Source: Acidobacteria bacterium 13_1_20CM_3_53_8
GTDB taxonomy: Bacteria; Acidobacteriota; Blastocatellia; Pyrinomonadales; Pyrinomonadaceae
Length of the DNA stretch: 64,000 nt
Direction: 5' to 3'
Assembly: GCA_001920415.1 (NCBI GenBank)
Contig: MNJR01000047.1
Span: 62,001-126,000, forward strand
The notes beneath the pieces are model-generated. The model worked only from the letters and a program-made list of their open reading frames with translations. It was not told the origin of the DNA and did not search any database. The translations under genes and the position numbers were made by a program. Positions 2,642 through 6,732 of this stretch are shown here, piece by piece. The first letter of the stretch is position 1. Each line of letters begins with the position of its first letter.

Positions 2642-2719
2642 ACTACTCTTTACATTCTGGCTTCTGATACTCGAATTATTTCGCTTCAGAACTAAACTTT
2701 CCTTTCGGAGGCAAACTTG

Positions 2720-3997
2720 ATGAGCAAGCCGCAGGGTGCGACCGCAGTTAAGGAAGAACTCAACCCGTTCGAGATAGCAAAGCAGCAGTTCAATCGCGCG
2801 GCGGATTACCTTGATCTGGACGATTCTATGCGCGCCGTCCTGAGCAACACGAAGCGTCAGCTTATTGTCTCAATCCCTGTGAAGATGGATTCAGGCCACG
2901 TGGAAGTCTTCGAGGGTTATCGTGTTCAGCACAACATAGCGCGCGGGCCTGCGAAGGGCGGCATACGCTATCACCCGAACGTGACGCTGGACGAAGTCAA
3001 AGCGCTTGCATCTTGGATGACCTGGAAATGCGCGACCGTTGGCATTCCTTACGGCGGAGGCAAAGGCGGCGTCATATGTGACCCGAAGAGTCTTTCTATG
3101 TCTGAGCTTGAACGGTTGACGCGCCGGTACGCTTTCGAGATTGCGCCGATAATTGGCCCAGACCGTGACATTCCAGCGCCCGATGTTTACACGACCGAGC
3201 AAACTATGGCGTGGATTATGGACACTATCTCGATGGTGCGCGGCCACACGCAGTTGGGCGTTGTGACCGGGAAACCGATTGCGCTCGGCGGCTCGGAAGG
3301 TCGCAGCGAGGCTACTGCGCGCGGCTGTCTCTATGCGTTGCGCGAAGCTTGTCGCGTGCGCGGGATGGAGCTTTCGGGCGCGCGTGTCTCTGTTCACGGT
3401 TTCGGCAACGCGGGCGCGAACATTGCTCGTTTCACAGCGGCTGACGGCGCGCGCGTAGTAGCAGTCAGCGATTCGCGCTGCGGACTCTATTCTGAAAATG
3501 GTTTGGACGTAGCAGCCGCGCTTCGACACAAAGCCGAGACGGGTTCGTTGATGGGACTGCCGGGCGCGAAAGAGATTGCGTCAGACGAAGTGCTCTTTGT
3601 TGATTGCGATGTGTTGTTGCCGTCGGCTCTTGAAAACGCAATTACTCTTGAGAACGTGCATAAGGTGAAAGCCACGATCATAGCTGAGCTTGCCAACGGG
3701 CCTACTACGCCGGGCGCTGACCGTGTGCTGGCAGACAATGATGTGTTCCTGGTTCCAGACATTCTTGCCAATGCGGGCGGCGTGACCGTCAGTTATTACG
3801 AGTGGGTGCAGGATCAATACTCATTCTTCTGGTCTGAAAATAGAATCAACGACACGCTTGAGCGAAGTATGCGCGCAGCCTTTCAATCAGTTTACGAGAC
3901 GGCGCAGCGCTACCACACGGACATGCGCACGGGCGCTTACATTCTAGCCATCAGCCGCGTGGCCGAAGCTACGAGCGTGCGCGGCATCTTCCCGTAG
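2720..3997 (+). CDS. gdhA: Glutamate dehydrogenase (Glu/Leu/Phe/Val family)
   Basis: 425 residues from the ATG at 2720; a TTG directly before it is less likely because GGAG at 2707-2710 is well spaced for the ATG. The enzyme interconverts glutamate and 2-oxoglutarate plus ammonia with NAD(P). Visible family motifs are KGGIRYHP (79-86), the substrate lysines in WKCATVGIPYGGGKGG (K103 and the catalytic K115), an active-site Asp around 155 in PAPDV, and the Rossmann loop GFGNAG (227-232). Length is that of the hexameric bacterial/archaeal class. It is followed 18 bases later by the ArsC-like gene, with which it may be cotranscribed. Confidence 0.95.
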   Translation: MSKPQGATAVKEELNPFEIAKQQFNRAADYLDLDDSMRAVLSNTKRQLIVSIPVKMDSGHVEVFEGYRVQHNIARGPAKGGIRYHPNVTLDEVKALASWMTWKCATVGIPYGGGKGGVICDPKSLSMSELERLTRRYAFEIAPIIGPDRDIPAPDVYTTEQTMAWIMDTISMVRGHTQLGVVTGKPIALGGSEGRSEATARGCLYALREACRVRGMELSGARVSVHGFGNAGANIARFTAADGARVVAVSDSRCGLYSENGLDVAAALRHKAETGSLMGLPGAKEIASDEVLFVDCDVLLPSALENAITLENVHKVKATIIAELANGPTTPGADRVLADNDVFLVPDILANAGGVTVSYYEWVQDQYSFFWSENRINDTLERSMRAAFQSVYETAQRYHTDMRTGAYILAISRVAEATSVRGIFP

Positions 3998-4015
3998 AAA
4001 GGAATTTTAACGAAG

Positions 4016-4384
4016 ATGAGTAACGCTGAAGATAGGATTGTAGTTTACGAAAAGCCTACTTGAACGACTTGCAGGAAGACAGACCAACTGCTCCGTGAGA
4101 GCGGCGTTGATTTCGAGAAGGTGAACTATTACATAGAGCCTGTAGGCGAAGAGAAACTGCGCGAACTTATTGCGAAAATGGGAATCAGCGCGCGCGAGCT
4201 TCTACGCACCAGAGAGCCTGTTTATAAAGAGCTTGGCCTAGACGCACTAGAACTTTCCGACGATGAGTTGGTTCATTTGATGGTTGAGCATCCCGATTTA
4301 ATGCAGCGCCCGATTGTCGAACGAGGTGACCGCGCCGTTCTCGGTCGTCCCGTCGAAAATATAAAGCCACTGCTTGACCAATGA
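4016..4384 (+). CDS. ArsC/Spx-family thioredoxin-fold reductase with in-frame TGA at the first redox Cys (candidate selenoprotein)
   Basis: Read through one TGA (4061-4063, codon 16), the frame encodes 122 residues of an ArsC-family protein: strand IVVYEKPT, then [TGA]-T-T-C-R-K-T-D-Q-L-L, then the helix and C-terminal half LRELIAKMGISARELLRTRE...RPIVERGDRAVLGRPVENIK. Relatives carry CTTC here, so TGA stands exactly where the catalytic first Cys belongs, giving UxxC. Everything on both sides is intact and in one frame, and family length is normal. A SECIS-like hairpin lies at 4088-4104. Without selenocysteine insertion only an 87-residue fragment from the GTG at 4121 would be made, lacking the active site. 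A simple Cys-to-stop mutation remains possible. Confidence 0.75.
4088..4104 (+). promoter_or_regulatory. Candidate bacterial SECIS element
   Basis: CTGCTC (4088-4093) pairs with GAGCGG (4099-4104; five Watson-Crick pairs and one T-G), with a five-base loop CGTGA. The loop starts 30 bases after the TGA at 4061-4063, and a G is the second loop base. Known bacterial SECIS hairpins sit within roughly 16-37 bases of the UGA and need a G at the first or second apical position. Identified by eye, not by folding. Confidence 0.45.
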
Positions 4385-4430
4385 TTAATTTCAACATCTA
4401 TGCTCAACCCTTTGCGAGCTTCTGATTTTC

Positions 4431-4510
4431 CTTTGCGCCTTTGCGAGAACCCTCAATTCTATTAAAGCTCAAGATTCATGTGAGTTGGAGTTTCACGCAA
4501 AGGCGCAAAG
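4431..4510. repeat. Inverted repeat CTTTGCGCCTTTGCG
   Basis: CTTTGCGCCTTTGCG at 4431-4445 and its exact complement at 4496-4510, with a further AGCTTATCG/GCGAGCTT-like outer pairing. It fills the gap between the ArsC-like gene and the esterase and could terminate transcription. I have seen this CTTTGCG word in intergenic DNA of many bacteria. Confidence 0.75.
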
Positions 4511-4585
4511 ATAAACGATAAGCTCGCTAAGATGGTTTTGAATCGCGCTCTGAGTCTGCAAACATATTCAGGAAGGGTGAACATA

Positions 4586-5358: not shown

Positions 5359-6732
5359 GTGGCTAAAGCGCCAGCGACAATTTACGTCTGCCAGAATTGC
5401 GGTTATCAATCCCGAAAATGGCTTGGAAAATGTCCAGACTGCGGCGAGTGGAATTCTCTTGTAGAAGAAAGAGCGCGCGCCTCTGCTAAAAAAGATTCTA
5501 CGCGCGGCGGCGGATTCCGTCTGCGCGAAGTTCATCCAGTAGCTTACGGCGAGATCGAATCGCAGAACGACTCACGTATTCCATCGGGCGTAGCGGAATT
5601 CGACCGCGTACTTGGCGGCGGAATAGTCCCAGGCTCGCTCATACTCATTGGCGGCGACCCGGGTGTCGGGAAGTCCACGCTGCTGCTTGATGTCGCGGAC
5701 AAGCTGAGCGCTTCGGGCGAGAGCGTGCTTTATGTTTCGGGCGAAGAGAGCGAGCGGCAGATAAAGCTTCGCGGCGAGCGGCTAGGCGTTCATGCGCAAA
5801 ATCTCTTTCTTCTGCCGGAAACGAATCTGGAAAATATTTTCGGCGAAATCGAAAAGATGAATCCGGGCGCGGTCATAGTTGATTCTATTCAGACGGTCTT
5901 TTCGGAAAAGATTGAATCCGCGCCCGGCTCTGTCTCGCAGGTGCGCGAAGTCGCAGGACAATTCCTGCTGCTTGCAAAGAACCGAACGATACCTGTTTTT
6001 CTGATAGGCCACGTCACGAAGGAAGGCTCAATCGCCGGGCCGAAAGCCTTAGAGCACATTGTTGACACTGTGCTCTATTTCGAGGGCGAGCGCCATCACA
6101 ATCATCGCATCGTGCGCGCGACGAAAAATCGCTTTGGCGCTGCGAACGAAGTCGGAGTGTTTGAGATGACGAATACGGGACTGGTCGCCGTAGCAAATCC
6201 GTCAGAGATGTTTTTGCAGGAGCGACCCATAGGCGTGGCCGGTTCTGTTGTGACCGCGTGCATGGAAGGAACGCGGCCTGTGCTCGTGGAGATTCAAGCG
6301 CTGGTGTCAGGCTCAAAGTACAACTATCCTGTGCGAACAGCGCAAGGATTCAATGCCAGCCGTATCGCACTCCTGCTCGCGGTGCTTGAAAAGCGCGTTG
6401 GACTTCATCTGCTCGGCGACGATGTGTTCGTGAACATAGCGGGCGGGCTTGAGATTGACGAACCCGCTGCGGACTTGGGCGTGGTGGCCGCAATCGCATC
6501 TAGCTTCAAAGAGAGGCCGATTGACGCGCACACGGCTGTCTTCGGCGAAGTCGGATTGACAGGTGAAGTGCGCGGCGCGCTTCAGGCGCAGGTGCGCGCG
6601 CGCGAAGCTCAGGCGCTCGGCTTCAAAAAAATCGTCATGCCCGCGTCGAACACAGCCGGGCTTGAAAGGCTTCTTGGCCTGCGCGTCGTCGGCGTTCGCT
6701 CTGTCGAAGAAGCGCTCGATGAACTGTTCTAA
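5359..6732 (+). CDS. radA: DNA repair protein RadA (Sms)
   Basis: 457 residues, full family length, starting at GTG 5359 after an AAGGGGGAAG ribosome site. Domains in order: four-cysteine zinc finger (C11, C14, C25, C28 in CQNCGYQSRKWLGKCPDC), RecA-like ATPase with Walker A GGDPGVGKST (98-107) and Walker B VIVDS (172-176), the RadA-specific KNRFG motif (256-260), and a C-terminal Lon-protease-like domain (about 290-457) with VNIAGGLEIDEPAADLG. RadA extends D-loops during homologous recombination as a hexameric helicase. No oddity seen. Confidence 0.97.
   Translation: MAKAPATIYVCQNCGYQSRKWLGKCPDCGEWNSLVEERARASAKKDSTRGGGFRLREVHPVAYGEIESQNDSRIPSGVAEFDRVLGGGIVPGSLILIGGDPGVGKSTLLLDVADKLSASGESVLYVSGEESERQIKLRGERLGVHAQNLFLLPETNLENIFGEIEKMNPGAVIVDSIQTVFSEKIESAPGSVSQVREVAGQFLLLAKNRTIPVFLIGHVTKEGSIAGPKALEHIVDTVLYFEGERHHNHRIVRATKNRFGAANEVGVFEMTNTGLVAVANPSEMFLQERPIGVAGSVVTACMEGTRPVLVEIQALVSGSKYNYPVRTAQGFNASRIALLLAVLEKRVGLHLLGDDVFVNIAGGLEIDEPAADLGVVAAIASSFKERPIDAHTAVFGEVGLTGEVRGALQAQVRAREAQALGFKKIVMPASNTAGLERLLGLRVVGVRSVEEALDELF

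Follow-up and report, generated by a model that had tools for sequence, protein, structure and literature searches.

A predicted selenocysteine-containing ArsC-type reductase of the UxxC form encoded between gdh and radA in Pyrinomonadaceae (Acidobacteriota)

Selenocysteine (Sec, U)-containing relatives of arsenate reductase (ArsC) have been predicted repeatedly. ArsC-like selenoproteins were reported in 2006 (PMC1794560), and the Global Ocean Sampling (GOS) survey comprised arsenate reductase selenoproteins with a UxxS (ArsC 1) as well as a UxxC motif (ArsC 2, cd03032; PMC2398784). A first-pass annotation of the DNA studied here likewise mentioned ArsC-like selenoproteins predicted from metagenomes. 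A 2026 review assigns UxxS selenoproteins to TIGR00014 and UxxC selenoproteins to NF041106 (PMC13188914). The gene described here resides in a stretch of 64,000 nucleotides (in the following, the window; contig MNJR01000047.1, positions 62,001 to 126,000, forward strand) of the Pyrinomonadaceae member Acidobacteria bacterium 13_1_20CM_3_53_8, and very probably encodes a selenoprotein with Sec at the catalytic position of an ArsC-type reductase. Since Sec-containing ArsC proteins of both the UxxS and the UxxC type have already been predicted in surveys, it represents a new lineage and not a new kind of selenoprotein, i.e., a UxxC lineage outside NF041106 that is common in Pyrinomonadaceae. A literature search, with most subscription journals outside its scope, retrieved no paper joining Pyrinomonadaceae with selenocysteine.

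Reading frame, fold and active site

The gene (4016–4384, plus strand) starts with ATG at 4016, harbours a single internal TGA as codon 16 (4061–4063, plus strand) and terminates with a second TGA (4382–4384, plus strand), with homologues ending at the same place. Translation of the frame confirmed the course given by the first-pass annotation, from an ATG through one TGA to a normal end. With the internal TGA read as U, the product is a protein of 122 amino acids (MSNAEDRIVVYEKPT[U]TTCRK...LLDQ), in which U16 and C19 form a UxxC motif; the putative resolving Cys19 is encoded by TGC at 4070–4072 (plus strand). The sequence AAAGGA (3998–4003, plus strand), located 12 nt before the ATG, presumably serves as ribosome-binding site. 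Directly upstream, an open reading frame (2717–3997, plus strand), which we take to be gdh for a Glu/Leu-type dehydrogenase, ends 18 nt before the start of arsC, while a radA-like gene (5359–6732, plus strand), recognized from its open reading frame and conserved synteny, represents the conserved downstream neighbour. An intergenic inverted repeat (4410–4531) with 50-nt arms of 78% complementarity and an exact CTTTGCGCCTTTGCG core is located just 3' of arsC; no second exact copy of it was found within the window.

For profile scoring and the AlphaFold2 model, Cys was written for Sec at position 16. The protein passed the Pfam ArsC model PF03960 (82.4 bits, cut-off 24) and is the only PF03960 (ArsC-family) member found in its own genome. 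Among NCBIfam models, TIGR00014 (arsenate reductase (glutaredoxin)) scored best and was narrowly missed (105.4 bits, cut-off 106.05), TIGR01617 for the broad Spx/MgsR subfamily was passed (76.5 bits, cut-off 75.05), and the Spx-specific models (NF002459 and relatives) did not reach their cut-offs (63.2 vs 123 bits). Membership in NF041106 (ArsC_rel_Se_1) was rejected (23 bits, cut-off 85). The AlphaFold2 model (mean pLDDT 92), with its first strand at residues 8–12 and first helix at 17–29, has bacterial arsenate reductases as best matches in the PDB (TM 0.86–0.90), followed by Spx (about 0.8). The original label ArsC/Spx family is refined in that the sequence is nearer to arsenate reductase (TIGR00014) than to Spx and the closest folds are those of arsenate reductases.

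In the R773 ArsC of Escherichia coli, Cys12, R60, R94 and R107 are active-site residues. An ungapped alignment to its structure (PDB 1jzw) places U16 at Cys12, C19 at Ser15 and R64, R98 and R111 at R60, R94 and R107, respectively. The TGA does, as had been claimed, occupy the position of the catalytic Cys of the family, and the active-site arginine triad is kept.

Codon 16 among relatives and selenocysteine machinery

The family survey covered 119 Pyrinomonadaceae genomes, with the protein matched in 97; two distant matches were left out and codon 16 was read in 96 homologues. This codon is TGA in 59 and TGC or TGT in 37 of them, no other codon being present. A uniform presence of Cys in relatives, one of the outcomes that the first-pass annotation had named as speaking against Sec, is not seen. 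TGA at the same codon was also detected in some homologues from other Acidobacteriota families. Cys at U+3 is invariant within the family (58/58 Sec forms, 36/36 Cys forms), and the residues flanking the TGA (ITVYEKPT-U-TxCR) constitute the most conserved part of the protein in Sec and Cys forms alike. Homologues end 100–112 codons past codon 16, the one exception being L035, in which an additional TAG is present in frame; a disruption is likewise seen in L145. Median dN/dS values downstream of the TGA amount to 0.16 for TGA genes and 0.13 for Cys genes, indicating purifying selection. With a TGA "stop" as Sec codon, the gene would be liable to truncation or oversight in the ordinary annotation of many genomes.

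The own genome (6.1 Mb, 95.9% complete) contains all components for which a search had been suggested, namely tRNA-Sec (selC; 69.8 bits, anticodon TCA), SelB (368 bits), SelA (560 bits) and SelD (356 bits). SelD is itself Sec-coding (motif SCAG-U-AAKL; locus L048, contig C5, minus strand near 2397), and its Sec codon is followed by a strong hairpin. Across the family, a tRNA-Sec match above 59 bits is present in all 59 TGA-bearing genomes, and among the genomes with the gene, the seven in which tRNA-Sec and SelB are both missing invariably have the Cys form (Fisher p 7.6e-4; related genomes are treated as independent in the tests, and p-values are accordingly optimistic). A SelB match over the cut-off is missing in five TGA genomes, mostly fragmented assemblies. 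The co-occurrence of machinery and codon goes in the direction that a selenoprotein requires.

The SECIS hairpin and other explanations of the TGA

Bacterial selenocysteine insertion sequences (bSECIS) are modelled with a loop of 3–9 nt, a stem of 4–16 bp, a G among the first two loop nucleotides, a distance of 16–37 nt from the UGA and an MFE of -7.5 kcal/mol or lower (PMC13188914). The hairpin at 4088–4104 (plus strand) agrees with this model, having a 6-bp stem (4088–4093/4099–4104) and a 5-nt loop, CGUGA (4094–4098), situated 30 nt after the UGA; if short flanks are included, its local MFE is -7.8 to -8.1 kcal/mol, compared with -6.7 kcal/mol for the bare hairpin. In selD of the same genome, a similar hairpin follows the TGA, its loop (GGUGU) starting 32 nt from this codon. 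Location (25–41 nt after the TGA) and loop are as the first-pass annotation had described them. The fold of the single sequence is unconvincing (55 nt, no better than shuffles, z 0.43), so that comparative evidence was relied on, and by comparison the hairpin is convincing.

RNAalifold recovered the same stem de novo from 54 distinct TGA sequences and found no structure with 36 Cys sequences. In the TGA set, 96.6% of the cells of the six-pair stem are paired and four pairs changed on both sides; cells changed on both sides number 49 vs 16.5 in shuffles, none of 500 shuffles reaching as high a count and slid registers coming nowhere near. The inner four pairs are kept in 55 of 58 TGA genes (one inner pair broken in the other 3) vs 13.7 expected under random synonymous recoding, and in 9 of 36 Cys genes vs 5.0 expected. 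At the wobble positions of Phe(+10) and Glu(+12), TGA genes combine TTT with GAA (22) or TTC with GAG (11), TTC-GAA occurring once and TTT-GAG never (p 4e-8); this purely synonymous covariation points to selection on RNA pairing and not on the protein. At the amino acid level, the residue at U+11, the codon of which forms the beginning of the loop, is Arg in 58/58 TGA genes vs 15/36 Cys genes, and positions +10/+13 are Leu-Ser or Phe-Asn, paired, in 56/58 TGA genes and mixed in Cys genes. Some covariation is also seen in the control with the Cys set, which we attribute to relatedness, shared amino acid sequence and relic hairpins (e.g., L016, L020, L022 and L128); the case for the SECIS accordingly relies on the contrast between Sec and Cys genes and on the synonymous-codon expectation. 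The hairpin is conserved and covaries in the TGA set, whereas its lack of conservation had been listed among the findings that would count against a selenoprotein.

These results bear on two other explanations of the TGA. A recent nonsense mutation, as initially considered, or a sequencing or assembly error would turn the gene into a pseudogene of an ordinary Cys ArsC by one change from TGC/TGT, and close Cys homologues exist. The low dN/dS past the TGA, the covarying SECIS, the complete Sec machinery and the absence of TAA or TAG at this codon are at odds with such an origin, and the same TGA recurs in 59 separately assembled genomes; nonsense mutation, chance or sequencing error can be excluded because the TGA is shared by these 59 family homologues, and we consider a pseudogene exceedingly improbable. 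Hardly more credible is the notion that the TGA closes a 15-codon leader and that the 87-aa open reading frame which exists from GTG 4121 is translated separately. This GTG represents codon 36 and lies past the first strand and helix, so that a separate product would have no catalytic site, and the region around the TGA is the very part most conserved in both Sec and Cys forms; on the basis of this conservation and the fold model, separate translation was rejected. Reading codon 16 as Sec is thus retained.

Sec/Cys interchange, proposed function and comparison with known systems

In nearly all Pyrinomonadaceae contigs examined, gdh is located upstream and radA downstream of the gene, irrespective of whether it is of the Sec or the Cys form; the two forms share the same gdh-arsC-radA locus and are therefore orthologues. 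When the codon-16 column is masked in the protein tree, which has no firm root, parsimony yields at least 19 Sec/Cys changes, a rough count since the tree has few columns; at least four changes are forced by well-supported branches. Several Cys genes neighbouring Sec relatives (L016, L020, L022 and L128) still carry a SECIS-like hairpin, which suggests that their change from Sec to Cys was recent and that the hairpins are apparently relics. One genome (G098) contains two copies of the gene (L019 and L082), one with Cys and one with Sec. The lineage is useful because relatives switch many times between selenium and sulfur: orthologues of the two forms, sharing a syntenic locus in a single bacterial family, provide a natural experiment on why selenium is retained or given up, as well as a direct view of an RNA element within a coding region constraining amino acids.

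From the elements described above, we infer Sec insertion, catalytic cycle and substrate as follows. Directed by the in-frame SECIS hairpin at 4088–4104, SelB with Sec-tRNA-Sec would decode UGA codon 16 as Sec, which would stand in for the nucleophilic Cys12 of the glutaredoxin-type ArsC fold and form a UxxC pair with Cys19. Within the arginine-lined pocket, the selenolate may then attack a substrate that is either an oxyanion (arsenate-like) or a disulfide, Cys19 would resolve the adduct to an intramolecular selenenylsulfide, and thioredoxin or glutaredoxin would reduce the latter. The chances that this chemistry of a UxxC thiol/oxyanion reductase is correct are about even.

Given a selenoprotein, two functions come into consideration. 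An arsenate reductase proper, serving in arsenic resistance and sped up by Sec, would agree with the presence of all equivalents of Cys12, R60, R94 and R107, with bacterial arsenate reductases as best folds and with a TIGR00014 score close to its cut-off. The protein may well reduce arsenate in vitro. That cut-off was missed nonetheless, and an arsenic operon was not found, the conserved neighbours being gdh and radA instead of ars genes. Neither Acr3 nor pI258-type (Trx-type) ArsC was found in the own genome, nor was ArsB, the latter being a softer negative as the E. coli control genome likewise gave no ArsB match. A role in arsenic resistance is doubtful because Acr3, ArsB and pI258-type ArsC were not detected and the neighbours are housekeeping genes; a dedicated role of this kind in the own genome is unlikely. 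An Spx/YffB-like redox switch or a general thiol-disulfide reductase acting via UxxC, which we tentatively regard as possible, would be in accord with the invariant CxxC/UxxC (as in Spx), the passing of TIGR01617, the matches to Spx folds at a TM of about 0.8 and the chromosomal housekeeping neighbourhood. The Spx-specific models, however, stay far under their cut-offs, and the arginine triad of the arsenate site is kept although superfluous for a pure redox switch.

Taken jointly, the results are compatible with a so far undescribed UxxC ArsC lineage at the gdh-arsC-radA locus that has switched many times between Sec and Cys, in which protein sequence is dictated by the SECIS (Sec forms hold, and Cys forms release, Arg at U+11 together with the residue pairs Leu-Ser or Phe-Asn at +10/+13) and which has a housekeeping redox role and not one in arsenic resistance; we judge this combined view to be about as probable as its opposite. 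Elsewhere in the phylum, a second ArsC-like lineage with a UxxC motif (IC-x-x-T-U-x-x-CRKAVALL) comprises 12 loci from other Acidobacteriota families with TGA at this same site (L176–L181 and L183–L188); one representative had no NF041106 match and scored below the TIGR00014 cut-off. Further TGA forms, both UxxS, are represented by L182 and L195, with the motifs YHNPG-U-SKS (scoring above the TIGR00014 cut-off) and FHNRH-U-NSS.

Among known proteins, the R773 glutaredoxin-type ArsC (PDB 1i9d, 1jzw) shares with the window protein the fold, the position of the catalytic Cys and the three active-site arginines at about 37% identity in structural alignment, whereas the window protein has Sec for Cys12, Cys for Ser15 and no ars operon. 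Spx/YffB, ArsC-related regulators and reductases, likewise share the fold, and Spx also has CxxC; the window protein, however, scores low with Spx models and keeps the arginine triad. The UxxS selenoproteins (ArsC 1, PMC2398784; TIGR00014, PMC13188914) resemble it in the ArsC fold, in Sec at the Cys12 position and in having been predicted computationally with a downstream SECIS, while the window lineage is UxxC and lies just under the TIGR00014 cut-off. The UxxC selenoproteins (ArsC 2, cd03032, PMC2398784, compared by description only; NF041106, PMC13188914) are, like the window protein, ArsC-related and UxxC, but by its score the window protein stands outside NF041106.
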